DNA of 64,000 bases, taken from the NCBI GenBank assembly GCA_017411305.1, contig JAFQQI010000052.1, forward strand, positions 62,001 through 126,000. Reading direction: 5' to 3'. The position numbers and the translations under genes were made by a program. Below are positions 3,154-17,242 of this stretch, one piece after another. The notes beneath the pieces are model-generated. The model was not told the DNA's origin, made no database searches, and saw only the letters and a program-made list of their open reading frames with translations. The first letter of the stretch is position 1. Every line of letters starts with the position of its first letter. The stretch is from Lachnospiraceae bacterium. Lineage in GTDB: Bacteria; Bacillota; Clostridia; Lachnospirales; Lachnospiraceae.

Positions 3154-4290
3154 CTATTTAATTGCCGGTGTATAATCATCCACATAACTGTATGCGCACC
3201 AGATACAGGTATACGTAGTAAATCCGCCTGAGTTGCTTGTAGGTGATGTAATCGTTGCCGTGTAACTATGATTATTAGGATCCAACTCGATTAGTTCTGC
3301 ATAGCTGCTTCCGCAGGTACAGACAAAGGACCTCATCCCCTTCTCGGTACAGGTGGATTCCTTAAGCACGTAAGAAGTATAGCTGTGGGAATGACTGCTA
3401 CCGGGTGTTGCACTTGCTGACGCTGTAGACGATGGACTCGCCGAAGGTGTTGTCGTAGCTGAAGTTGTAGCTGTTGGTGTTGCAGAGGCTGAAGCAGATG
3501 CCGAAGGGGATGCTGAACCGGACGCTGCAGGCGATGCTGTCAGCATGCTGACCGGCCTGGAATCTACTACCACACCGCATACATTACAGGTACGCTGTTC
3601 CCTGCCGAGAGTCGTTGTGGTAGGCGCTTCCGCCACTGTCCAATCCGAAACCACATGTCCCATTGCTGCAATCTTCTCGGTATAAAAACTTCCGCATACA
3701 CAACTGTACTTACGAAGCCCTGCTAAAATACAACTGGGTTCCCTGTCAATACTTGCAGTATAAGTATGATAATGCGTCTCATCCTTATCCGATTCCTTGC
3801 TCTCATAAGGAATTACTTCCTGGGCTACAATTTCATCACAATAGATGCATCGCATCACCCTTAATCCATCCTGCTCCTTCGTTGCTTCCCGCTGTACTTT
3901 CCAAACATCCTCCACATGTCCGGTGGAGGAAATATCTACATAATAAGAATCTCCGCAATCACAAACATATTTTAATCGCCCTGCCCGATAACAGGTTGCC
4001 TTTTTTTCAATTTCTTCTTCGTAATCATGAATATGATTGGGATCTGTAGCAAATACATCAGTCTGCACCGGCTCCTGTGTAGGAACCGCCGCTTCTTCGC
4101 TATTTTCCGGATTTTCAAACGGAGTTGCTTCTACCGTAGCCTCAACATACTGCTTATCTGTATCCGCATTCTCTTCCTTTTCAAAGCCGCCGCCCATCAT
4201 GGAATAACCGATTATTCCGATAGTGGCAACACAAGCAATGACAGCCAATATTCCTAAAATTCCCGTGAGAATTTTCATCAGCGTATTCAT
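3154..4290 (-). CDS. Membrane-anchored protein with three paired CxCG/CxxC repeat modules
   Basis: 378 residues, function unknown. An N-terminal hydrophobic helix (about residues 7-30) anchors it or acts as an uncleaved signal; the rest should be outside the cell. Three modules follow, each with an H-x-H start, C-x11-C-x-C-G-x2-Y, and (about 35 residues later) C-x2-C. A Ser/Ala/Thr/Pro-rich linker of about 50 residues separates modules two and three, like a wall-spanning stalk. The cysteine and histidine spacing looks like a zinc ribbon, but secreted copies of this repeat are common on Lachnospiraceae surface proteins and metal binding is not shown. It starts 17 bases after the stop of the kinase-DegV fusion gene (ribosome site GGGAG), so it is probably the last gene of that kinase operon. 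Confidence 0.75.
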   Translation of the reverse strand: MNTLMKILTGILGILAVIACVATIGIIGYSMMGGGFEKEENADTDKQYVEATVEATPFENPENSEEAAVPTQEPVQTDVFATDPNHIHDYEEEIEKKATCYRAGRLKYVCDCGDSYYVDISSTGHVEDVWKVQREATKEQDGLRVMRCIYCDEIVAQEVIPYESKESDKDETHYHTYTASIDREPSCILAGLRKYSCVCGSFYTEKIAAMGHVVSDWTVAEAPTTTTLGREQRTCNVCGVVVDSRPVSMLTASPAASGSASPSASASASATPTATTSATTTPSASPSSTASASATPGSSHSHSYTSYVLKESTCTEKGMRSFVCTCGSSYAELIELDPNNHSYTATITSPTSNSGGFTTYTCIWCAYSYVDDYTPAIK

Positions 4291-4307: not shown

Positions 4308-6986
4308 TTACTTCGGAAACGTATAATAAGCTATTCCGATTGCATTCTTTCCGGTATTACATGCATTGGTAAAGGATGCTTTCTGCATAACCACTCGTTC
4401 AAACGGAATACACTTTAAAATTTCTTTCTTAATCCATTCCTGCTGCTTGACACTACAGCCTACATGAGTAACAAAACAAATGCCTTTGCTGATTCTGCGC
4501 TTCCTACGCAAATGCAAGCGAATTCCCTGTCGCCATGCGTTTTCCATGCTTCCGCCCAAAAGCGCTATCAATACCGCCCTCTTTTGAAGCATTGCCATAT
4601 ACGGATGAAGATTTAAAAAACGGCAGACTTTCACGGTAGCGCTTCTGGCTCGACCATTCTGATGGAAAATCTCTGCACCGGCCATAATAACTCTGGTATG
4701 GATATTTCCGAGTCCGCTTTCTACCTCTTTGATAATTTCTTTTGCACTCTTTCCTTCCATCGCCAGCATCGCTGCATGTAAAGTAACAAGAGCCTGCCCA
4801 CCGGATATTTGTCCCGAATCAATAATATGTACATGGTCAAAGCTCTTAGCTGCTGTCATAGCTATATCATAGCTCTTCCCGGCACGAGATGCCAGCGAAA
4901 TATGAATAATCTGGTCTGCCTCTGTTAAGGTTTCCGCAAAGAACTGTTCAAATTCTTCTACCGTCACGCTGTCTGCATAGGCACTGCTGCTTTCATCTGA
5001 TACATACTGGGATAAGCTGTCAATATCAATTTCTCTGGTATCCGCAAAACGTCCGTTAGGTGTCTTAATATACAGGTACATCAGCTTTATATCATATTTC
5101 TCCAGCAGGTCCTGAGGGATATCACTGGCACAGTCTGTGGTAACATAAATTTTCTTCCGTTTTCTTCTGCTTTGCTTCTGTACCCGCCCAAACTGACCTG
5201 ATACACCATCCGTATCTCTTCGATTCTCAATAATATCCTCCGGAAGGAATTTCAGGATTTCTGCTTCTAACATTTTGCCCTGAATGGGCTTTTCCAGATA
5301 ACCGTCAAAGCCCATATCCAGATACATCTGTTTTGCCCCTGATTGGGTGTTACCGGTCAGGGCAAGCACAGCGGAATCTCTGCAAAGTCCGTTTTCCTGC
5401 TCACGTAGTTCCTGAAAAGTCTCTAAGCCATCCATCCCCGGCATCATATAATCCAGTAAAATAACATGGTAATATTTTCTCTTGGTAAGCTCCAGACATT
5501 CCATCCCGCTGTTAGCTACATCCACCTGCACCTTGGTAAATGACAAAAGTCTGGTCGCCACCATCGAATTCATACGGTTATCATCCACTACCAGAATTCT
5601 TGCTTCAGGAGCTTCAAAGCTGGGCTTATAAACTTCCCCTGCATCTGTCTCCTCCGCTTTAATACTAATGTCCCCGATAAAGGTTGCATCTGCCACCTTC
5701 TGCCTAAGCTTTACCGTAAATGTACTACCTTTTGTATAGATACTGTCTACAGAGATTTCGCCGCCCATCAGCTCTACCAGTTGCTTGGTAATGGCAAGTC
5801 CCAGACCACTACCTAAAATATTGGTATTTTTCTTTTCATCCACACGACGGAAGGCATCATAAATATGCTCAATATCCTCCTTACGGATTCCGATGCCTGT
5901 ATCCGCTACACTAATTTTCAATCCTACATATCCGTCTTTATTTTCCTCTGCTTCCGCTGCAAGTGTTACGGAGCCATTCTGGGTATACTTAACCGCATTG
6001 TCCAAGAGATTCAAAAGCACCTGCTTTAATCTCTTCTCATCTCCAATCAGCTCTGACGGCAACTTCTCATCAATATCCAGAATCATATCCAGGTTCTTCT
6101 TTTCCAGCTGGACACGGGTTAGTTCCGTTAATTCCGTAAACAACTCCTTAGTTTGATACCTGGTAGGCACAATCTCCATTCGTTCCATTTCCATTTTGGA
6201 CAAATCCAGAATGTCATTCACCTGATTTAACAGCATTTTACTGGCCGCCTGAATATCCTTGGCGTAAGTTCCGATTTCTCCGCCGGGATTTTCTCTCAAA
6301 ATCATTTCATTTAATCCGATAATGGCATTAATGGGTGTTCTGATTTCATGGCTCATATTGGCAAATAAAACATTTCTTGTATCACGGCTCTTGGCCAATT
6401 CTTCTTTTTGGGCCAAATTGATTTTATGTTCTTCCGCAAACACATTCATGTGCGCCTTCAGAATAATACCGCCCACAGACCCTATCAAAAACACTGCAAA
6501 AAAGGAGTCAATATATGACATAGTTCTGGAAGACATAGGGGTAACCATTTCCGGCTTCAGATAGGTAGCAAGATAAGTTCCGCCATACATAACCAATGCC
6601 AGAATCAAAAAGTAAAAAAGACGCTTACCGGAAAACATGATAAATATGTACAAAATACCAAGCGTCATCCAAACCGTTGCACCACCGTCCAAGGCTCCGC
6701 CATAAATAAATGTCAGCGGGAAAAGTAAAATGATAATCACAAGTCCAAGCAAAATCGCCGCCAGCTCATATTTACGGAATTTAAGCGCCACAAACAAAAC
6801 GCTGCCCACCAGCAACACTACCGTCAGTATTACTACGATTAGCATACTCGTTATGCCCCTAAGCAACACCATCTCCAGCAAACCTGCTGCTGTTACAACG
6901 CCGCCCAGCATAATAACGGTTCTTGTCAAGCGCTCATGTAATTCATCTTCTTTTCCCATCAGCCAACCGGCTAATTTTTTCCACAT
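4308..6986 (-). CDS. Hybrid histidine kinase-receiver fused to a complete DegV domain
   Basis: 892 residues. Order: six or so membrane helices (residues 25-180), HisKA with phospho-acceptor H213 in ANMSHEIRTPIN, HATPase (N-box near 330, GIG near 365, GLGL near 394), receiver with phospho-acceptor D512 in LLDYMMPGMDG, a basic linker near 606-612, then a DegV domain from 612 to the end. DegV proteins (FakB in Gram-positives) bind a fatty acid and present it for phosphorylation by FakA. The fused domain keeps the family landmarks: TTDCASDIP at its start, DSGQISGGQ, a NGR turn with NLHPYM, and the GIAY end. It begins 11 bases after the stop of the upstream kinase and is followed 17 bases later by the Cys-repeat gene. 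A frameshift joining two genes is unlikely, as the frame is continuous with full-length domains. Whether DegV is a lipid sensor or an output is unknown. Confidence 0.92.
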   Translation of the reverse strand: MWKKLAGWLMGKEDELHERLTRTVIMLGGVVTAAGLLEMVLLRGITSMLIVVILTVVLLVGSVLFVALKFRKYELAAILLGLVIIILLFPLTFIYGGALDGGATVWMTLGILYIFIMFSGKRLFYFLILALVMYGGTYLATYLKPEMVTPMSSRTMSYIDSFFAVFLIGSVGGIILKAHMNVFAEEHKINLAQKEELAKSRDTRNVLFANMSHEIRTPINAIIGLNEMILRENPGGEIGTYAKDIQAASKMLLNQVNDILDLSKMEMERMEIVPTRYQTKELFTELTELTRVQLEKKNLDMILDIDEKLPSELIGDEKRLKQVLLNLLDNAVKYTQNGSVTLAAEAEENKDGYVGLKISVADTGIGIRKEDIEHIYDAFRRVDEKKNTNILGSGLGLAITKQLVELMGGEISVDSIYTKGSTFTVKLRQKVADATFIGDISIKAEETDAGEVYKPSFEAPEARILVVDDNRMNSMVATRLLSFTKVQVDVANSGMECLELTKRKYYHVILLDYMMPGMDGLETFQELREQENGLCRDSAVLALTGNTQSGAKQMYLDMGFDGYLEKPIQGKMLEAEILKFLPEDIIENRRDTDGVSGQFGRVQKQSRRKRKKIYVTTDCASDIPQDLLEKYDIKLMYLYIKTPNGRFADTREIDIDSLSQYVSDESSSAYADSVTVEEFEQFFAETLTEADQIIHISLASRAGKSYDIAMTAAKSFDHVHIIDSGQISGGQALVTLHAAMLAMEGKSAKEIIKEVESGLGNIHTRVIMAGAEIFHQNGRARSATVKVCRFLNLHPYMAMLQKRAVLIALLGGSMENAWRQGIRLHLRRKRRISKGICFVTHVGCSVKQQEWIKKEILKCIPFERVVMQKASFTNACNTGKNAIGIAYYTFPK

Positions 6987-6997
6987 GTAACATTCTC

Positions 6998-9748
6998 CTA
7001 TCTGTCAAAGCCGTCCTTCCATTTCAATACAGTCTCAACTGCAGAAATGTAGTCAGAACGTTCAATCTTTCTCCTAACAGGTACCAGAAACTCTCTTAAG
7101 GAAACACCACGATATTGATAATTTTGCAGTTCCGTCACAATCTCAAGCAAACGCTCGCCTTCTAAATTATACATCGCCTCTTCCATGCAGGCAATCTTCT
7201 CATCAAGCAGTGCATCCTCTATCTCTTCAAGCTCTGAAAGCAATTCTTCTTCGGTCTTAGTATCAACCGGCTCCGATATTGCTCCTTCCGGCCATACCCA
7301 TTCATTATTCCGTAAGGATACAAAAAGAGCCCGATATTTTTCCATCAATTTCGAATGGTTTTCCAAAATATAATCAATCCGATATTCTTTACCGGCAAAT
7401 TCCAGTTTCCTTGCCTCCTCCGAAATATCCGTTGCACCGATGCTCTTCATGGCACTCTTTAAGCCGTGTACTGCAATGGTATAGTTCTTCCAATCCTGCT
7501 GTTCAAAGGATGCCTCTGCCAAAAGTCCTGTCTGGTTCCAGTCTTCGCAATAACCCCTGAGCACCTTCAGATACGGTTCTTTACCATTGCAATAAAGGAT
7601 TCCCTTAGCCACATCCAGCCCTTCAATTTCAGGTATTTCTGAACTTTTCGAAGTTTCTGTCTTAATTTCCTCTTTAGGCAAAGATAACTCCTGCACTTGC
7701 TCTGTGCTGATAATTTTATCATGAGGTAAATTTCTTTTCAGTACCCTTTCCAGTACGGAACGCTCTACCGGCTTTTCCAGAAAGTCACTAAATCCTTCTG
7801 CCATCAGCATTTCTCTGGTTCCTGCCACGGCGTTGGCTGTTAATGCGATTACCGGCACCTTTTGATAATAAGTTCCAACCTTGTGTCTGATACGGTGCAT
7901 GGTTTCCACTCCGTCCATTTCAGGCATCATATGATCCATAAACACAAAGTCATAGTCTGCTGTTTCTATCTTTTCCAGTGCTTCCTTTCCGCTCAATGCA
8001 GTAGTTACTTTAATTTTGTAATTAGCCAAAAATTCCTGAATTACCATCAGATTCATGCGGTTATCATCCACTGCCAGAACATGCACATCTCTGGTGATAA
8101 ATTTTTCGCATACATTATGCCTGTCATAATATTTTCCCTGTAAGCCGTTTAGCACAGATACAATAGACAAAATATAAAAAGGCTTGTAAATTCGTAATAT
8201 TGCGGGATTGCTGATATATTTATCTTCATAATGATTCAGTACCACAACCAGCTTTGTTTTTGTAGCAAGCTCATCGAAATAACTCTGACTCTGCCTATAC
8301 TCTGCTGTACTGATAAACACGTGGGAGAATCCTTCTTTTTCCTGGCGCCTTTGCAATTCTGCCAAATTCCTGCAGATATGGCACTTTCCCTTCAACTGTT
8401 CTGCCATGTGAACAATCATATCGGAATACTCGTCACGGATAGCCGCCATCTCAAACTGTTCCATATCAATATAAGTTGCCACCCGGATATTTTGTCTGTC
8501 ATACAGCGATGCAATCGGGGTTTCGTCTACCACCTTCTGCGGTACTACTATCTGTATAATTGTTCCTTTCCCCGGTTTACTCTTTACGGTAAGGGCACCA
8601 TTCATCTTTTCTACCAATGCTCTGGAAATTGCAAGCCCCAGTCCCAAACCGCCTTCCTGGCGCTTACGGCTGGTATCTACCTGACTAAAGCCCACAAACA
8701 ATTTTTCCAAGCTTTCTTCATCCATACCGATACCGGTATCCTTAACAGAAACTACCAAATTAATTCCGTAGCTTTCTTTACGATAACTGACCTTCAGACA
8801 AACATAACCTTCCTCTGTAAACTTAATGGCATTACTCATTAAGTTCATAATCACCCTGCGAAGCTTCTTTTCGTCTCCCAACAAAATACTTGGTATGGTG
8901 GCATCACAGTCTACAAGAATTTCTATCTTCTTATCTTCCTTCCTTGCCATGGACGAATTAATAACGTCGTTTATAGTAGAGGTAATATTGTAAGCTTCTT
9001 CCTCCGGTTCTATTTTACCGGACTGCAATTCCGAAAAATCCAGAATATCACTGACCACACCCATCAGACCTCTTCCGGACATTTGAATATTAAGCACATT
9101 TTCCTTAATTTTATACGGTATTTCCTCCCGCAGTATAATTTCACTCATACCGCAGATGGTATTAATGGGAGTCCTGATTTCATGACTGACATTTGCCACA
9201 AAATCATCCTTACTTCTTTGCACAACTTTTAATTCTTCTATCGTATCCAGCAGTTGCTTACTGCCTTCACTGTTTCGCTTGGTCCAGATATATACAACAT
9301 ATTGCGCAAGCAACACATTTATAATCTGAGAAAAATAATTCATAACCTCAGCGGCGGAGCTAAATGCAACTGTGCGCAAAACAAATGCATGGGCAAAAAA
9401 GATTACTGCCGTAGATGCAAGTGTCATAGTAATAATATCTGCAATTCCGTACAAGCCCATAAAAATAACAAAAACAATTAATACCGGAACTGTCTGTACT
9501 ACACTTTCTCTCTGCACGCCGTAAAGAATCGCACACACCTGCATAATCACGGACGTAATTCTGACCCTGACCTCATAGGTCTTATATTTGCAACTGTAAA
9601 GAATCCAGCAAACCATCAACAGAAATAAGACAAAAAAGCCGATAGGTCTGCTTGATACAATCATAATGGTTGCTGCATATACGCTGAAAACTATTAACAT
9701 AAAGCTTTCAATTTTATTCTGGCTGCCCGTGTATGTTATTTTATCCAC
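6998..9748 (-). CDS. Membrane hybrid histidine kinase with degenerate and true receivers and Hpt domain
   Basis: 916 residues, start GTG at 9748 with GGAGG 8 bases upstream. Five or six N-terminal helices (15-155) with no sizeable outer domain, HisKA with H189 in ANVSHEIRTPIN, HATPase (GLGLGLA near 368), a receiver-like segment at about 420-540 with no recognisable acidic pocket or acceptor Asp, a true receiver with D605 in FMDHMMPEMDG, and an Hpt domain with H761 in AVHGLKS. About 120 residues beyond the Hpt form an extra helical tail. The layout is a complete phosphorelay (H-D-H) whose final partner is not evident nearby. A terminator separates it from the upstream receptor gene, so it probably opens a new transcript that includes the kinase-DegV gene. 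Confidence 0.92.
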   Translation of the reverse strand: MDKITYTGSQNKIESFMLIVFSVYAATIMIVSSRPIGFFVLFLLMVCWILYSCKYKTYEVRVRITSVIMQVCAILYGVQRESVVQTVPVLIVFVIFMGLYGIADIITMTLASTAVIFFAHAFVLRTVAFSSAAEVMNYFSQIINVLLAQYVVYIWTKRNSEGSKQLLDTIEELKVVQRSKDDFVANVSHEIRTPINTICGMSEIILREEIPYKIKENVLNIQMSGRGLMGVVSDILDFSELQSGKIEPEEEAYNITSTINDVINSSMARKEDKKIEILVDCDATIPSILLGDEKKLRRVIMNLMSNAIKFTEEGYVCLKVSYRKESYGINLVVSVKDTGIGMDEESLEKLFVGFSQVDTSRKRQEGGLGLGLAISRALVEKMNGALTVKSKPGKGTIIQIVVPQKVVDETPIASLYDRQNIRVATYIDMEQFEMAAIRDEYSDMIVHMAEQLKGKCHICRNLAELQRRQEKEGFSHVFISTAEYRQSQSYFDELATKTKLVVVLNHYEDKYISNPAILRIYKPFYILSIVSVLNGLQGKYYDRHNVCEKFITRDVHVLAVDDNRMNLMVIQEFLANYKIKVTTALSGKEALEKIETADYDFVFMDHMMPEMDGVETMHRIRHKVGTYYQKVPVIALTANAVAGTREMLMAEGFSDFLEKPVERSVLERVLKRNLPHDKIISTEQVQELSLPKEEIKTETSKSSEIPEIEGLDVAKGILYCNGKEPYLKVLRGYCEDWNQTGLLAEASFEQQDWKNYTIAVHGLKSAMKSIGATDISEEARKLEFAGKEYRIDYILENHSKLMEKYRALFVSLRNNEWVWPEGAISEPVDTKTEEELLSELEEIEDALLDEKIACMEEAMYNLEGERLLEIVTELQNYQYRGVSLREFLVPVRRKIERSDYISAVETVLKWKDGFDR

Positions 9749-9819: not shown

Positions 9820-11172
9820 CTAGTATTTACCGAAGCCATCCTTCAAAGAAATAATCTGTTCATTTCTGTCTGACTGGCTTTCATAGTGACGGCTTGTACT
9901 ACCGCTCATATCCATATAAGAATTTCCGTTCAGCTTATAAATAGCAAGCATTTCACGTACACGTCCTGCCTGATTGGACAATTCAATACTTGCTGCGGCA
10001 CATTGCTGACTGGTCGCAGAGTTGGTCTGTACTACCTGGGATACCTGTTCGATGGCCTGATCAATCTGTGCGATTGCAGTTGCCTGATAATTGGATGCAT
10101 CTGCAATTTCATTAATAATGCTTTCGCTCTTCTTTACTACTTCTGAAATTTCTTCCAGTGCCTGTGCTGTTTCATTGGCAATCTTGGAGCCTGCTTCTAC
10201 CTTAATGATAGAATCCTCAATCATTTCTGCTGTTTCCGCTGCTGCAGATGCACTCTTAGCTGCTAAGTTTCTTACTTCCTCTGCTACAACCGCAAAGCCC
10301 TTACCCGCTTCACCTGCTCTTGCTGCTTCTACCGCTGCATTCAATGCCAGAATATTGGTCTGGAATGCAATGTCATCGATGACCTTAATAATCTTAGAAA
10401 TGTTTTCGGATGCTTTGTTGATATCCTGCATAGCAGTTACCATCTGCTGCATTTCTTCATTTCCCTTCTTTACATCCACGATAGCCTGTCCCATAAGGCC
10501 TGCTGCCACGTTTGCCTGGGAAGCATTCTGTTTGGTCTTTTCTGCCACATCATCAATAGATGCGGTAATCTGTTCAATGGCACTTGCCTGTTCGGTAGAG
10601 CCCTGTGCCAATGCTTCACTTGCACTTGCAACCTGGGAAGAGCTTGTAGTTACCTGATAAGCAGCATCCTTAATATTGCCAAGAGCATGCTGGTTGTTAC
10701 TTACCAGCTTCTTAAGTGCCATTCCCATGACATCTTCATCAGATCTGGGACGAACTTCAACCATCAGATTACCGTCAGCCACTTCCTGGGCAACCTGTGC
10801 CTGATAACGGGTTCCGTCAATTACCTTCTGGAAATCATCCATCAGCATACCGAACTCATCATTAGCATCCTTCTGAATCTTAATATCTGTCTTTCCGGCT
10901 GCCATTTCATCTGCTGCCTTTGTCAGTTTGCTAAACGAAGTCCGCATTTGCTTCGTCAGTACAATTGAAATTCCTGCTGTAACAACTGTCATGATAATAA
11001 ACAATACTGCTGTAAAATAAGCATATTTGCTTAAATACGCCTGCTGGACTGACGGATCAGCTGCCACAATCTGTCCTGCTGCACTGTATCCGGTATATAA
11101 AGAAAAAATTAACAAAAGGCTTAAAATGACATAGCCGATAACCAGTTTTGTATGCATCTTCATATTTTTCAT
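9820..11172 (-). CDS. Methyl-accepting chemotaxis protein with minimal outer loop
   Basis: 450 residues. Two membrane helices (about 10-28 and 48-70) bracket an outer loop of only about 20 residues, too small for a ligand domain. A HAMP linker (about 72-125) leads into a long coiled-coil signalling domain with the conserved hairpin tip reading [23 protein letters not shown] in part, which binds CheA and CheW at the membrane. No C-terminal methylation pentapeptide tether for CheR/CheB is visible. ATG at 11172 has GGAG 10 bases upstream and lies 5 bases after the cheW stop, so it is the last gene of the che operon. With so small an outer part, the signal probably comes from the membrane, the HAMP region or a partner protein (inference). 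Confidence 0.92.
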
Positions 11173-11707: not shown

Positions 11708-13879
11708 TTATTCAACCAGACCGGCTGCATCCAAAATCAGTGCAATGCTGCCGTCCCCAAGCTGGGTACATCCCGATAATCCCTTTACTCGTTTAATATA
11801 GTCGGGAATCGGTTTTACTACGATTTCCTGTTTTCCTACCAATCGGTCCACAAACAGACAAATCGGTTTCTTTTCTACTTCTATCAGTACCAGCATACCA
11901 TTATCAAGATCTGATTTATAGTCACTTAACTGATACCATTCGCCGATGCGAAGCACGGGATAGCACTCCCCACGAATCATAACAAATTCTGAACCATCCG
12001 GATCACTTTGCATCATATCACTGCGCATACCGATAAATTCTTTCACCACACCGGTTTCGATGACGAAGGAGGATTTACCCACCTCCATAACGATACCATC
12101 GATAATGGCAAGCGTAAGGGGTATCTTCATTATCATCTGGCTGCCCTTGCCCGGCGTACTCTCGATTTCGAGACTGCCGCCGATGGACTGCAGGTTGGAT
12201 ACTACAACATCCATTCCTACGCCTCGTCCGGAATATTCCGTTACCTTCTCATTGGTTGAAAAACCGGGTAACGTAATAAACTGGTATACTTCTTTATCGG
12301 TGTAATCATTATCCATCTTGTACGGATCAAGAATGCCCTGCTTTCTTGCTTTGGCAAGAATCTTCTGGCGGTTAAGTCCTTTACCGTTGTCCTGTACGGT
12401 AATCCATACCTTACCGGATTCTGTCTTGGCGGATAAGGTAACCTTACCTTTTTCGGTTTTGCCTGCTGCCGCACGCTCATCCGGCATCTCAATACCGTGG
12501 TCAACGGAGTTTCTTACCAAATGCATCATGGGGTCGGAAATATGTTCAATGATGTTCTTATCCACTTCCGTGTGCTCGCCCACCATTTCAAACTCTATCT
12601 CTTTGCCCAGCTTGCGGGATACATCAAACACAATACGGTTCATCTTTTGGAAGGTATTGGTAAGAGGCATCATACGCATGCTCATAATTACGTTCTGAAG
12701 ATCGGTAGATATCTTGGTCATCTGACCGGCTGCCTTATTGAAATTATCAAGTCTAAGTCCGGGCACCTTCAAATCCTGATTCTGAAGCACAACAGATTCG
12801 GCAATAACAAGCTCTCCGATTAAATCCATAAGCATGTCCATCTTATGGACATCTACGCTGATAAGGGCTGCTTTCTCCTGTTTCTTTGGCTTATCCTTAA
12901 CCAGCTTCTTTCCACGTCCGGGCTCTTTGGATTCAATAACGAAATCACCGGGGGCAATGGTCTTTTTCTCCGGTTCCTTTGCCGGCTGCATCTGTACATC
13001 AGGTGCAATATACATCATACCGCCATCTGTTTTTGCCTCTATCTCTTCCACACTGGATTCCAAATCAATTCTGATTTCGGAACCGATACTGTCAAAGCCC
13101 TGCTGGAACTCCTTGGCACTACATTCGTAAATGTCTACCTTTTTCAGCTCGTAGCCTTCTTGCACAATCCCGCGAAGGTCGGCTTCACTGCTCTGGGTCT
13201 GCAGCAAAATCTTAAAACCATTTTCAAGAATTTCTTCTGCCGCGGATTCGTCAGAAATAATATCTTCCGGATAGTGCAACAAATCCTCTGCGATTTCCTT
13301 CAACGCATAAACTGTTTTGTATGCATGTACATTAGCAAGCTGTACATCCGGCTGGAAGGTCAAATATATCTTATAAAAATGGCTTGCACTGGTTGCCATA
13401 GGTGCAATATAAAACTGCTCCGGCGCAATATATACATTTTCCTTGATATCCTTTTCTTTTTCACCTTTACCGCTTTTAATGGTATCCAGGAACTCATCTA
13501 AAGCCGTTACATAATCACTTGCATCACCGTCCGGCTGTCCGCCTTCCTGAATTTTAATCATCTCGCTGGAAATAAAATCAACTACCTGCAGAACATGTTC
13601 TACCAATTCCATATGCGGAACATTATCGGGTTTTGACTCTCTTAAGTAAAAGAATACATCCTCCAGTTTGTGTGAGATTCTGGTAATCTCATCAAACATC
13701 ATGACACCGGAAGAACCCTTGATGGTATGCATTGCACGGAAGATTTCATTAATACTGTCTTCATCAAAGCAATCATCATCCTTCTGTTCCAGCACGATTT
13801 CCTGAAGCCGTTCAAGCAGTTGTCCGTTTTCAAACAGGTATATGTCCAGCATGCCCTGTGTATTAAACTCTTCTGCCAT
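11708..13879 (-). CDS. cheA: Chemotaxis histidine kinase CheA
   Basis: 723 residues, the cytoplasmic kinase of a chemosensory array. P1 Hpt domain with H51 in AMHTIKGSSG; a long middle region (about 110-330) carrying a weakly conserved P2-like part; P3 dimerisation helices near 340-400 (DLIGELVIAES); P4 ATPase with N-box HLVRNSVDHGIEMP, DNGKGL and GRGVGMDVV; and a C-terminal CheW-like P5 domain. All catalytic motifs look intact. It has an AAAGGAG site 6 bases before ATG and starts 13 bases after the CheY-like gene. It phosphorylates that receiver and CheB by analogy with the family; the true output here is unknown because no flagellar or pilus gene is in view. Confidence 0.96.
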   Translation of the reverse strand: MAEEFNTQGMLDIYLFENGQLLERLQEIVLEQKDDDCFDEDSINEIFRAMHTIKGSSGVMMFDEITRISHKLEDVFFYLRESKPDNVPHMELVEHVLQVVDFISSEMIKIQEGGQPDGDASDYVTALDEFLDTIKSGKGEKEKDIKENVYIAPEQFYIAPMATSASHFYKIYLTFQPDVQLANVHAYKTVYALKEIAEDLLHYPEDIISDESAAEEILENGFKILLQTQSSEADLRGIVQEGYELKKVDIYECSAKEFQQGFDSIGSEIRIDLESSVEEIEAKTDGGMMYIAPDVQMQPAKEPEKKTIAPGDFVIESKEPGRGKKLVKDKPKKQEKAALISVDVHKMDMLMDLIGELVIAESVVLQNQDLKVPGLRLDNFNKAAGQMTKISTDLQNVIMSMRMMPLTNTFQKMNRIVFDVSRKLGKEIEFEMVGEHTEVDKNIIEHISDPMMHLVRNSVDHGIEMPDERAAAGKTEKGKVTLSAKTESGKVWITVQDNGKGLNRQKILAKARKQGILDPYKMDNDYTDKEVYQFITLPGFSTNEKVTEYSGRGVGMDVVVSNLQSIGGSLEIESTPGKGSQMIMKIPLTLAIIDGIVMEVGKSSFVIETGVVKEFIGMRSDMMQSDPDGSEFVMIRGECYPVLRIGEWYQLSDYKSDLDNGMLVLIEVEKKPICLFVDRLVGKQEIVVKPIPDYIKRVKGLSGCTQLGDGSIALILDAAGLVE

Positions 13880-13892
13880 TTACTACTCCTTT

Positions 13893-14285
13893 CTATATCA
13901 GACCGAATTTCTTAAGTACCTGTTCAAATCTGTCCTGATCAATGGGCTTACCGGAATAAACCGTACAGCCAAGCTCGAAAGCCATCTTCACGTTCTTTTC
14001 ATCATTTAATGCAGTTGTCATAATTACCTTAGCTGCTTTTTCTTTAGGAATATCACGTTCTTTCTCCAAATTACGGATTCCCATCAGTGCCTGATAGCCG
14101 TCCATGACGGGCATCATGATATCCAGACACACCAAATCATAAGGGTCGTCATCCTCAAGTGCCATCATAAAAGCATCCACAGCCTCCATACCGTCAACGG
14201 TTACATCGCACTCACCGTACTTTGACAGAAAACCTGACATGAATTTCCTTGTTACAAAATCGTCTTCTGCTAATAATATTTTCAT
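13893..14285 (-). CDS. CheY-like single-domain response regulator
   Basis: 130 residues, a lone receiver: acidic pair EDD near residues 7-9, acceptor D55 in CLDIMMPVMDG, Thr in TTALN near 90 and Lys in GKPID near 110. The ATG at 14285 is preferred to one six bases upstream because of its distance from the AAAGGGA site. It lies between cheB and cheA and is the natural phosphate acceptor for CheA. It has no DNA-binding or enzymatic output, so it must act by protein contact. It may be a CheY analogue, but the ECDVTVDGMEAVDAF stretch resembles regulators paired with non-flagellar systems, so the name cheY is not assigned. Confidence 0.88.
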   Translation of the reverse strand: MKILLAEDDFVTRKFMSGFLSKYGECDVTVDGMEAVDAFMMALEDDDPYDLVCLDIMMPVMDGYQALMGIRNLEKERDIPKEKAAKVIMTTALNDEKNVKMAFELGCTVYSGKPIDQDRFEQVLKKFGLI

Positions 14286-14305
14286 AAGCATTCCCTTTCC
14301 GCCTG

Positions 14306-15334
14306 TTACATTTTGCCAAGTAAGGAATAGGTCCTTTTGGCAATATCCGGCAATTTCTCCTGATACTCTACAGCTCCTATGTCATATGCCACCTTGGGCA
14401 TTCCGTAGACAACACATGTGGACTCATCCTGTCCGATGGTCCTTGCCCCCTTCTTTCTCATGGAAAGAAGTCCTTTTGCACCATCACCGCCCATACCGGT
14501 TAAAATAATACCCAGCGCCTTGTTTCCTGCCACTTCCGCAACGGATTCAAAAAGCACATCCACGGAAGGACAATGTCCGTTTACCTTAGGTCCCGGCTTT
14601 ATCACCACCTGATAAATACCGTTTACCTTAACCAATCTCATATGGGCATCACCTCCGGGTGCAATCAAAACCTGCCCCGGTAACACCTGGTCACCGGTTC
14701 TTGCTTCTTTTACCCTTACTCTGCACTGATTGTTCATACGATTGGCATACATTTCCGTAAAGCCCGGTGGCATATGCTGTACCACCACTACCCCCGGAAT
14801 GTCTGTTCCGAACTCTTTTATTACGGTGGAAATCGCTTCTGTTCCGCCGGTAGATGCTCCGATAGCCACTACCAAATCACCGGTTCCTTCTGATAAATGC
14901 TGGCTGGGCATTTGTTCCGGTGCTTTTTTAAACTTTCCTACCTTAGCAACAGATGCTACCTTTATCTTCACTGCCAACTCATTTTTCATAAACGCTTCCA
15001 TCTGCGCCCTGTTGGCACCTGACGGTTTTGCTACAAAATCAACTGCTCCGGCATTCAGCGCATCAAACACCCTCTCGCTAAGAGAACTGATAACCACCAC
15101 CGGAAGCGGATATTGGGGCATTAGCTTGCGCAAAAACTCAATCCCGTCCATCTTAGGCAGTTCCACATCCAATGTCATCACATCCGGATGGTATTTCAAA
15201 ATAGCGTCTCTTGCTTCAAAAGGGTCTTTGGCGGTTGCCACAACCGTAATCGCCGGATCTGCATTCAGGTTTTGTACCAAAAGTTCACGAAACACCAGGG
15301 AATCTTCCACTATCAGTACCCGTATCTGACGCAT
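14306..15334 (-). CDS. cheB: Protein-glutamate methylesterase/deamidase CheB
   Basis: 342 residues. N-terminal receiver with acceptor D56 in TLDVELPKMDG and KPSG near 103; linker; C-terminal CheB methylesterase with catalytic S161 (GASTGGTEA), H187 (VVQHMPPGFT) and the late Asp in LTGMGGDGAKG. It removes methyl groups from receptor glutamates when phosphorylated by CheA. Start ATG at 15334 follows GGGGGAG. It lies 15 bases downstream of cheR and 20 bases upstream of the receiver gene. Confidence 0.96.
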   Translation of the reverse strand: MRQIRVLIVEDSLVFRELLVQNLNADPAITVVATAKDPFEARDAILKYHPDVMTLDVELPKMDGIEFLRKLMPQYPLPVVVISSLSERVFDALNAGAVDFVAKPSGANRAQMEAFMKNELAVKIKVASVAKVGKFKKAPEQMPSQHLSEGTGDLVVAIGASTGGTEAISTVIKEFGTDIPGVVVVQHMPPGFTEMYANRMNNQCRVRVKEARTGDQVLPGQVLIAPGGDAHMRLVKVNGIYQVVIKPGPKVNGHCPSVDVLFESVAEVAGNKALGIILTGMGGDGAKGLLSMRKKGARTIGQDESTCVVYGMPKVAYDIGAVEYQEKLPDIAKRTYSLLGKM

Positions 15335-15349
15335 TTATTACTCCCCCTC

Positions 15350-16153
15350 TCATTTTCGGAAAATCGATGGCTGAATCATCTGAAAGGGTGTTCTCCCCCT
15401 GTCTATGGTTTCTGTTCTCCCTACAAACAAATACCCTCCCGGTTCCATCACATCGTATACCTTCTGAATTAGTTCCTGCTTGGTCTCTTTATCAAAATAA
15501 ATCATTACATTTCTCAAAAATACAATATGCATCTTCCGCTTAAAAGGAAAAGTATCCATCAGGTTAAACTGTCTGAACAATACCTGTTCCTTAATCTCAG
15601 ATGTAATCTCATATTTCTCACCACTATCCAGCTTCTTAAGATAGCGGCGCTTCCAGATATCAGGCAGACTTTCTATCTGCTCACTGTCATACCGGCCTAG
15701 GGTTGCATGCTGCAGTGCTTCTGTAGAAAGGTCTGTTGCCAACACCTTGGTATCCCAAAGATGATGCTCCAATCCAAAAAAATCCTTAAGCAACATAGCC
15801 AGCATATAGGGCTCCTGGCCTGTGGATGCTGCGCCGCACCAGATACACAAATCTCTGGAGTTTTCTTCCTTCCGGCGAAGCTGCGGTAACACTTCCTGCC
15901 TCAAAAAATCAAAATGCTCAAATTCTCTCATAAAGAAGGTATGATTGGTAGTAAGAATATTAACCAGCTCTTTTTCCAACCGACCGGTAAAATCCGATTC
16001 TACTGCATTCATATATTCGCTGTAGCTTTGATAACCGCCACGACGGATATAATTATCCAATCTTCCCTGTACAATTTCTTTCTTACGGTCCAAATCTATA
16101 CCGTACTTATTTTTAATCAAACGGTATATCCGCAGAAATTCTGCTTCTGTCAT
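15350..16153 (-). CDS. cheR: Chemotaxis protein methyltransferase CheR
   Basis: 267 residues. An all-helical N-terminal domain (1-75), then the SAM-binding domain with WCGAASTGQEPYM near 103-115 (family form GCSTGEEPYS), LATDLSTEALQHA, and the end motif YLFVGRTETI. It adds methyl groups to receptor glutamates. Residue NHTFFMRE near 70 matches the CheR family NxTxFFR box. It lacks the TPR extension seen in some non-flagellar CheR forms. Start ATG at 16153 follows GGATGGG; it is 15 bases after the HD-GYP regulator gene in the same operon. Confidence 0.95.
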   Translation of the reverse strand: MTEAEFLRIYRLIKNKYGIDLDRKKEIVQGRLDNYIRRGGYQSYSEYMNAVESDFTGRLEKELVNILTTNHTFFMREFEHFDFLRQEVLPQLRRKEENSRDLCIWCGAASTGQEPYMLAMLLKDFFGLEHHLWDTKVLATDLSTEALQHATLGRYDSEQIESLPDIWKRRYLKKLDSGEKYEITSEIKEQVLFRQFNLMDTFPFKRKMHIVFLRNVMIYFDKETKQELIQKVYDVMEPGGYLFVGRTETIDRGRTPFQMIQPSIFRK

Positions 16154-16168
16154 CTTTTTCCCATCCTG

Positions 16169-17242
16169 TTAATGTAGCTGACGCACAATTTTTTTCATAA
16201 TTTCAAAAATATCTGTATTCAGCTTGGTTCCTTCTGCCTTCTCCATAATCTCCAATGCATCTGCCTGGCTGTATGCAGGACGATAGGTACGTTCCTCGGT
16301 AAGAGCACAGTAGGAATTCACAATTCGGACAATCTGCGCCGAAAGCGGAATCTGGGCTTCTTTACTTCCTGTGGGATACCCGCTTCCGTCCCAGTTCTCG
16401 TGATGATACATCGCAATTTCGATTGCCATGCGGATAAATCCGTTATCATTGCTGCTGGAAGCTACGTCCTTCAAAATTCCGGCTCCGATTGTCGTATGCT
16501 TCTGCATCACAGCCTTTTCCTCCGGAGTCAGTTTTCCTTCCTTTTGTAAAATCTGGGTAGGCACTGCCATATTTCCCAAATCGCAAAGAGGTGCCGCCAG
16601 CTCAATGGTATCCACATAGCTGTCCGAAATCAAATGACCATACTTATTGGATAGCTGCATTGCCTCTGCTAAAATACGGCAATTATAGCTTAACCGTTCC
16701 ATGTACTGGGCATCATAACGGGAATTCTCTCTTGCTACACGAATCAGTGCATATAAAACGCTTCTCCGTTCTGCTTCTATCTTCTTTATCTGTTCACTGA
16801 TGGAGCTTTGCAACTGACGGTTCATTTCCGCCATTCTCCGGTTGGCTTCATGCATCTTAAGATGCATATTCACTCTTGCTTTTACTACCTCGGGAATAAA
16901 AGGCTTGGTGATATAATCCTCTCCACCAAAGGAAAAGCCCTTTACCACATCCGACGGATCATCAAATGCTGAAATAAAGATAATCGGAATCTCTCTGGTA
17001 TCCGGATTTTCTTTAATTTTGGTACATACTTCATAACCATCCATCTCCGGCATGGCTATATCTAAAATTATCAGCTGTGGCCTTAAATGCATCACCATCT
17101 TAAGAGCCTGTACACCGTTCTCAGTCAGAATAGGTCGATAGCCCATCTCAGTAATCACATCTCTTAAGATAAAGCGGTTTGCTTCCACATCATCCACGAT
17201 TAGTATCCGTGGTGCATCTTTATTTATATTTGCTGCTTCCAT
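16169..17242 (-). CDS. Response regulator with degenerate HD-GYP domain
   Basis: 357 residues. Receiver (1-125) with acceptor D61 in ILDIAMPEMDG and KPF near 113; coiled linker (130-165); HD-GYP-type domain to the end. HD-GYP enzymes hydrolyse cyclic di-GMP. Here the GYP loop is intact (WDGSGYP, about 284-290) and the KLTPEE...H segment is kept, but the metal-binding HD pair reads Cys220-Asp221 (LCDLGNMAVP, where the family has HDIGK) and the upstream family His is a Tyr. Loss of these metal ligands suggests no or altered phosphodiesterase activity, leaving perhaps a binding role. It starts 17 bases after the leading PAS kinase gene (GGAGG site) and 15 bases before cheR. Confidence 0.88.
   Translation of the reverse strand: MEAANINKDAPRILIVDDVEANRFILRDVITEMGYRPILTENGVQALKMVMHLRPQLIILDIAMPEMDGYEVCTKIKENPDTREIPIIFISAFDDPSDVVKGFSFGGEDYITKPFIPEVVKARVNMHLKMHEANRRMAEMNRQLQSSISEQIKKIEAERRSVLYALIRVARENSRYDAQYMERLSYNCRILAEAMQLSNKYGHLISDSYVDTIELAAPLCDLGNMAVPTQILQKEGKLTPEEKAVMQKHTTIGAGILKDVASSSNDNGFIRMAIEIAMYHHENWDGSGYPTGSKEAQIPLSAQIVRIVNSYCALTEERTYRPAYSQADALEIMEKAEGTKLNTDIFEIMKKIVRQLH

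Follow-up and report, generated by a model that had tools for sequence, protein, structure and literature searches.

The locus raises the question of what a DegV domain may do at the end of a histidine kinase. Proteins of the DegV/FakB kind are known to carry fatty acids, and several of them per genome are common; hybrid kinases more often bear output or HPt modules behind the receiver. The gene lies in a 64,000-nucleotide stretch of DNA from a Lachnospiraceae bacterium that was analysed as a whole (the window), and the original prediction read it as a single frame uniting a membrane hybrid kinase with a full DegV domain. This was borne out on the minus strand, where the frame and its parts are as follows:

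4308..6986, minus strand: hybrid histidine kinase - receiver - DegV fusion, 892 aa (open frame and Pfam domains)
6447..6920, minus strand: membrane-spanning part of the fusion, about residues 23-180 (hydropathy scan only)
6189..6377, minus strand: HisKA of the fusion, residues 204-266, with His213 (Pfam and alignment)
5700..6044, minus strand: HATPase_c of the fusion, residues 315-429 (Pfam and aligned residues)
5259..5597, minus strand: receiver (Response_reg) of the fusion, residues 464-576, with Asp512 and Lys566 (Pfam and alignment)
4323..5153, minus strand: DegV domain of the fusion, residues 612-888 (Pfam, NCBIfam and solved relatives)
4356..4358, minus strand: Asn877 of the fusion, where FakB1 has His270 (profile alignment to FakB1)

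The DegV domain matches positions 1-278 of the 280 in Pfam profile PF02645 (E 1.6e-31, 110 bits against a curated cut-off of 27), a whole-profile match that places it in this family, and NCBIfam concurs (TIGR00762, 122 bits against a cut-off of 99.7). Its relatives among solved structures include FakB1 chains, and the whole domain can be aligned with them. N-terminal to the kinase, the hydropathy scan found several hydrophobic stretches. HisKA, HATPase_c and receiver are all present with the His, the N-box, G1 and the receiver Asp intact, as expected of a hybrid histidine kinase, which the protein is predicted to be.

The source genome is a draft (2.89 Mb, 123 contigs, 82.6 % complete), and in such an assembly a kinase gene and a degV gene might have been joined by a frameshift or an assembly error. 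We consider the chance of this negligible. The context loci comprised 60 neighbourhoods and five more from the family search, together with 80 named loci from species genomes (the best 80 of 115). With identical domains removed, they contained 135 distinct DegV ORFs, and 123 of these are fused, which rules out an artefactual join. Fused ORFs also occur in two records not titled MAG, from Roseburia hominis strain An869 (L190) and Lachnospiraceae bacterium NK4A179 (L198), and the same join is found in a 99 % identical contig (L147) of another MAG. The latter contig (JAGANQ010000037.1, 4202 bases, identical to G174:C69), in which the 99 % identity to the window covers the DegV part, sits in a genome assigned to another genus, and its mis-binning is probable. 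Split fusions exist as well, L048 being present as two ORFs and L193 as three.

Immediately upstream of the fusion, separated from it by 11 bases, lies a second hybrid kinase, hereafter the partner, in which a kinase is followed by a degenerate receiver, a receiver and an HPt domain:

6998..9748, minus strand: partner hybrid kinase P0002, 916 aa, GTG start
8069..8533, minus strand: degenerate receiver-like stretch of the partner, the diagnostic region (alignment A5 and search)
7742..8080, minus strand: receiver of the partner, residues 557-669, with Asp605, Asp in 104/106 (Pfam and alignment)
7334..7627, minus strand: HPt domain of the partner, residues 708-805, with His761 (profile, E 5.5e-38)

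When 299 genomes of the window's family were searched with the DegV part, the matches listed included at least 67 kinase-linked places in at least 52 genomes. In 110 of the 123 distinct fused ORFs from the context loci the partner, taken as the best match among the window's own proteins, stands directly upstream on the same strand. The other 13 have it within three genes (four cases), lie at a contig edge (six) or belong to three further loci (L074, L092 and L139), and the contig of L074 starts at that point. The spacing is tight, with 86 of 113 gaps between -4 and +20 bases. The converse search used an independent profile built from the partner's degenerate receiver alone (alignment A5) and was run on the same 299 family genomes. 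It yielded 61 matches scoring 100 bits or more, in 49 of these genomes, the next match having 73 bits, and 57 of the 61 have a linked DegV domain within 6 kb; three more lie at contig ends, and one is a real orphan (G188). Seen from the DegV side, the partner is present at 57 of the 67 linked places among the matches listed. The ten places that lack it are five contig edges, a cut partner (G076), a fragment (G157) and three real exceptions (L085, L092 and L139). In L092 and L139 a single protein combines a membrane part, a kinase-like domain, a degenerate receiver and DegV. Its kinase-like part resembles the partner, although the usual phospho-acceptor motif was missing when read by eye, and both loci match the partner's degenerate receiver weakly (50 bits each).

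Over 103 pairs the divergence of DegV correlates with that of the partner (rho 0.745) exactly as with that of its own kinase part (rho 0.745), both values being uncorrected for species. When copies within the same genome were compared, so that species no longer plays a part, 160 of 188 divergence comparisons from 12 copy pairs agreed, differences below 0.04 for DegV or below 0.02 for the partner being left out; the agreement was weakest in G079 (11/18) and in two pairs of G002 (6/11 and 5/10). Judged by these sequence comparisons, fusion and partner are inherited together as a unit.

Conservation of the fusion with its neighbours thus holds for the upstream hybrid kinase and does not hold for the gene behind the fusion, a Cys-repeat protein:

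3154..4290, minus strand: Cys-repeat protein, without a Pfam match and outside the conserved unit

This protein has CxCG and CxxCG motifs, a Ser/Ala/Thr-rich stretch and an N-terminal hydrophobic segment. The fusion had been described as heading the Cys-repeat gene; the two are indeed adjacent (gap of 17 bases), but the fusion itself follows the Che genes and the second hybrid kinase. A Cys-repeat homologue behind the fusion was labelled only in L147 and L148, that is in 2 of the 80 named loci (best 80 of 115), and in none of the 60 loci in neighbourhoods from family genomes, and we rejected this gene as a conserved partner. No common family was found among the genes downstream of the fusion, the commonest families matching 6 of the 73 genes scanned out of 75.

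How the two kinases might work together is indicated by the distribution of the HPt domain. The HPt of the partner is not listed by Pfam at E 0.001; it was detected with a profile made from HPt segments of the family itself, so that the E-value of 5.5e-38 includes seeding by family members. This profile took the place of an earlier motif pattern that was too narrow and left 32 of 106 pairs without a match. Among the 106 complete pairs (103 fused and three with a separate DegV gene) the HPt lies in the partner in 92, in the fusion behind DegV in 12, in neither protein in two and in both in none. Exactly one HPt-bearing protein is therefore found in 104 of 106 pairs, as far as sequence can tell. 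No protein of the 106 pairs has two HPt matches; L284, whose partner is cut at a contig end, has two. When the HPt stands behind DegV, the partners are short (676-695 residues), and Pfam confirmed the HPt in both DegV-side cases that were scanned with the extension (L085 and L086). In L080 it is a separate gene of 123 residues. G984 holds four copies of the pair (L270-L273) and has the HPt behind DegV in all of them.

The catalytic residues of both proteins are well kept. In the fusions, the HisKA His, the G1 Asp, the receiver Asp and the receiver Lys are present in all 103 aligned sequences, N330 in 103 of 104 aligned rows and D362 in all 103. The partners keep the HisKA His in 104 of 106, the receiver Asp in 104 of 106 and the HPt His in 90 of 93 aligned sequences. 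The two kinases look like one phosphorelay with a common HPt. The strongest sequence evidence that the pair would form one relay is that the HPt switches between the neighbours, one per pair. Against this reading stand the HPt His missing from three of the 93 aligned partners and the HisKA His missing from two of the 106, the pairs L202 and L212 with an HPt in neither protein (other ORFs of each locus match the HPt profile), and the single proteins L092 and L139, which lack the phospho-acceptor motif and stand without a partner.

The original prediction also held that the DegV part keeps the landmarks of lipid binding. According to the available passages of one report (PMC8892158), FakB1 holds the fatty-acid carboxylate by a network of Thr62, Ser95, Ser171 and His270, and Trp180 belongs to its membrane-inserting helix; the available passages of another (PMC9136124) describe Arg173 as essential for phosphorylation and conserved in all FakBs. 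At the four places of the network, as given there, the window has Ala, Gly, Asn and Asn, and Arg173 is kept; the prediction was not confirmed on this point. We compared 131 linked domains with 29 unlinked domains drawn from matches to the linked-domain profile. The His270 place holds His in all 29 unlinked domains, and in a second unlinked set in 43 of 43 rows (37 distinct), whereas the linked domains have Asn in 111, another residue in 18, a gap in one and His in one (L074); Asn is also found in the four separate DegV genes described below. Arg173, the FakB residue named in those passages, is kept in 56 of the 131 linked and in 29 of the 29 unlinked domains. Position 62 is Ser or Thr in 80 of the 131 linked domains, and the Ser95 place is Gly in 59 and Ser in 52 of them. 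Ser171 is a weak criterion of FakB, because Gly is found there in 28 of the 29 unlinked DegV domains too. Arg205 was left out of the comparison since its column was unreliable (Gly in 35 of 37 short ORFs). Positions strongly kept in the linked clade and not in unlinked domains include the Asn at the His270 place, Ser264, Thr32 and Gly35 (FakB1 numbering). On the alignment, the DegV pocket of the linked clade is altered.

Linked domains are not alone in having lost the His, because an unlinked DegV of the source genome (L005, G000:C70:36299-37099) is also without it as read. This protein, which lacks the C-terminal HxGPG-type motif, was left out of the residue counts, its profile match being too short. 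A FakB-type carrier is unsupported as a reading of the fused domain, since other residues stand at the carboxylate-holding places in the window and, for the most part, across the linked clade. Of the proposal that a kinase-coupled DegV brings lipid binding into a phosphorelay, the tie to a phosphorelay is supported, and lipid binding of the FakA/FakB type is unsupported.

In a modified form of that proposal, the domain might nevertheless still bind an acyl chain or another lipid by a changed head-group site and inform the relay of the state of membrane or exogenous lipids. The alignment of the whole domain with solved FakB proteins, the Arg173 of the window and the membrane segments that the hydropathy scan placed in the kinase agree with such a sensor, and an altered lipid pocket is possible because of the numbers of linked domains that retain Arg173 or have Ser/Thr at 62; the same two counts weigh against a domain that has turned wholly from lipid binding to regulation. 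However, the carboxylate network known from the FakB1 passages is largely replaced, and the place of Trp180, the residue that they assign to the membrane-inserting helix, is Lys or Arg in 59 of the 131 linked and in none of the 29 unlinked domains, where Leu leads with 16. We regard lipid sensing as rather improbable.

The position of DegV behind the receiver, where output or HPt modules usually stand, speaks against a regulatory input and would fit an output module, in which phosphorylation of the receiver switches DegV and DegV then delivers fatty acid to FakA or sequesters it. FakA is indeed encoded in the source genome (one match to its C-terminal part). Yet the linked DegV lacks the FakB residues; the genome has five other DegV genes, four of them with the FakB-type His; and DegV also occurs before the kinase (L080) and as a separate protein (L061, L066, L082 and L261). 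A function in output is accordingly very improbable. The fused domain scores lowest in Pfam among the six DegV domains of this genome, in which about 2.3 kb separate FakA from the stand-alone DegV gene L003 (G000:C105:239579-243335); the two possibly form the FakA/FakB set of this genome.

DegV could also have lost ligand binding and act as a scaffold, offering a surface for docking or dimerisation by which the two kinases and the HPt stay together. This would explain why it stays linked to the partner kinase where it is a gene of its own, why it is found in several positions relative to kinase and HPt, why places of the pocket network such as that of Ser95 vary, and why it co-diverges with the partner to the same degree as with its own kinase part. 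The positions kept so strongly in the linked clade and not in unlinked domains may speak against a mere scaffold, which we judge unlikely. The reading that we prefer, with a probability of about 45%, is a phosphorelay of two kinases with one HPt, where DegV, once a fatty-acid-binding domain, would have turned into a dedicated regulatory part.

The outputs of such a relay may be encoded next to it. In the window the pair is preceded by a set of chemotaxis genes:

9820..11172, minus strand: MCP; its sequence reads as two membrane segments joined by just a short loop
11178..11690, minus strand: CheW
11708..13879, minus strand: CheA
13893..14291, minus strand: CheY-like single receiver
14306..15334, minus strand: CheB
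15350..16153, minus strand: CheR
16169..17242, minus strand: receiver-HD-GYP type response regulator (HD_5)

The co-oriented order is receiver-HD-GYP, CheR, CheB, CheY-like, CheA, CheW, MCP, hybrid kinase, fusion, Cys-repeat protein and P-type ATPase, so the fusion stands near the end of the run. Two flagellins and two CheA dimerisation domains were matched in the source genome. Scans for promoters and terminators gave 44 promoters against 40.8 (sd 6.1), which is near chance, and 25 terminators against 14.9 (sd 3.8), and no conclusion was drawn from either. Of 98 genes directly upstream of a partner on the same strand, 95 were scanned; 52 contain a receiver, 29 an MCP, 29 an HD_5 and 15 a GGDEF domain, the categories overlapping. 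The neighbours of the pair are mostly receivers, response-regulator-type c-di-GMP enzymes or chemotaxis genes. Linkage to CheA, CheW and MCP is present in the window, and MCPs recur among the upstream genes; receiver-GGDEF, receiver-GGDEF-HD and receiver-EAL-GGDEF proteins are among the examples near the pair.

In the preferred relay, phosphate would pass from the His of either kinase to the Asp of its own receiver, from there to the shared HPt His, and on to an adjacent response regulator, which here could be the receiver-HD-GYP protein, the CheY-like protein or the Che complex. Most likely, DegV would no longer serve FakA as a substrate and would bind a small ligand from the cytoplasm or derived from the membrane, and it might set the kinase/phosphatase balance of the pair, which would make it an input and not an output. 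We propose tentatively, at somewhat less than even odds, that DegV was diverted from fatty-acid transport to supply the ligand-binding core of a relay controlling c-di-GMP enzymes or chemotaxis in gut Lachnospiraceae, and that the His-to-Asn change marks the switch from carrier to sensor.

The unit resembles several known systems without coinciding with any of them. The window and some of its relatives have CheR-B-Y-A-W-MCP genes ahead of the pair, as in Che operons, but the pair also occurs without Che genes, beside receiver, receiver-HD-GYP or receiver-GGDEF proteins. BarA/TorS/ArcB-type hybrid kinases are among the best NCBIfam matches of both kinases, and the partner likewise ends in a receiver and an HPt; the scores of both lie far below the cut-offs of those models, and the difference here is one HPt common to two membrane kinases, with DegV added. 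In RcsC-RcsD-RcsB type relays two membrane proteins have one HPt between them, as the pair does. Here, in contrast, the kinase residues are kept in both proteins, and the neighbours are c-di-GMP or chemotaxis proteins. The linked domains are like FakB/DegV proteins (PF02645, TIGR00762) over their full length, with FakB1 among the solved relatives, but they nearly always lack His270, often lack Thr62, Ser95 and Arg173, and are fused to histidine kinases or encoded beside them. No DegV-kinase fusion was found in the non-subscription literature on DegV and signalling that was searched, and the DegV passages there concern ordinary DegV genes. The parts are of known kinds; their combination and the conserved partner are not described in the literature covered. 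The absence of His at the FakB1 His270 place, together with a gene beside this specific hybrid kinase, provides a sequence mark that separates the signalling branch from its close carrier relatives, and fusion and partner make up a testable unit for the control of motility and c-di-GMP in Lachnospiraceae.

Some loci may preserve the state before the fusion. In four (L061, L066, L082 and L261) a lone partner kinase bearing an HPt is followed by DegV as a gene of its own, and the kinase of L261 carries the diagnostic degenerate receiver (133 bits); other arrangements are DegV-HPt (L085) and DegV-kinase-receiver (L080). In a FastTree tree of 162 domains the linked DegV domains form one clade without an unlinked member, L170 excepted; L170 (partial ORF, 3-911) is an unlinked gene and was left out of the 131 linked domains in the residue counts, and L261 was outside the tree. 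The nested linked clades have 131 tips (support 0.547), 129 tips (0.998) and 128 tips (0.964). The separate genes L066, L061 and L082 branch outside the 128-tip clade, and the outermost placement of L061 and L082 hangs on the node with a support of 0.547. These three loci and one weak node suggest that DegV neighboured an HPt-bearing kinase before the second kinase was fused to it.

Fused forms extend beyond the window's family: among the matches listed, a draw of 391 genomes from the class contained them in at least one other family (three genomes), and a draw of 392 genomes from the order in G899 and G947. Among the matches listed for a draw of 299 genomes from the phylum there were none outside the class. 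Two records titled Gastranaerophilales (L166) and Muribaculaceae (L188) hold a Lachnospiraceae-like unit, and mis-binning is likely in both. Treponema/Spirochaetaceae MAGs (L202, L205, L209 and L226) have a longer fusion of 1006-1043 aa, which may reflect transfer between phyla or contamination.
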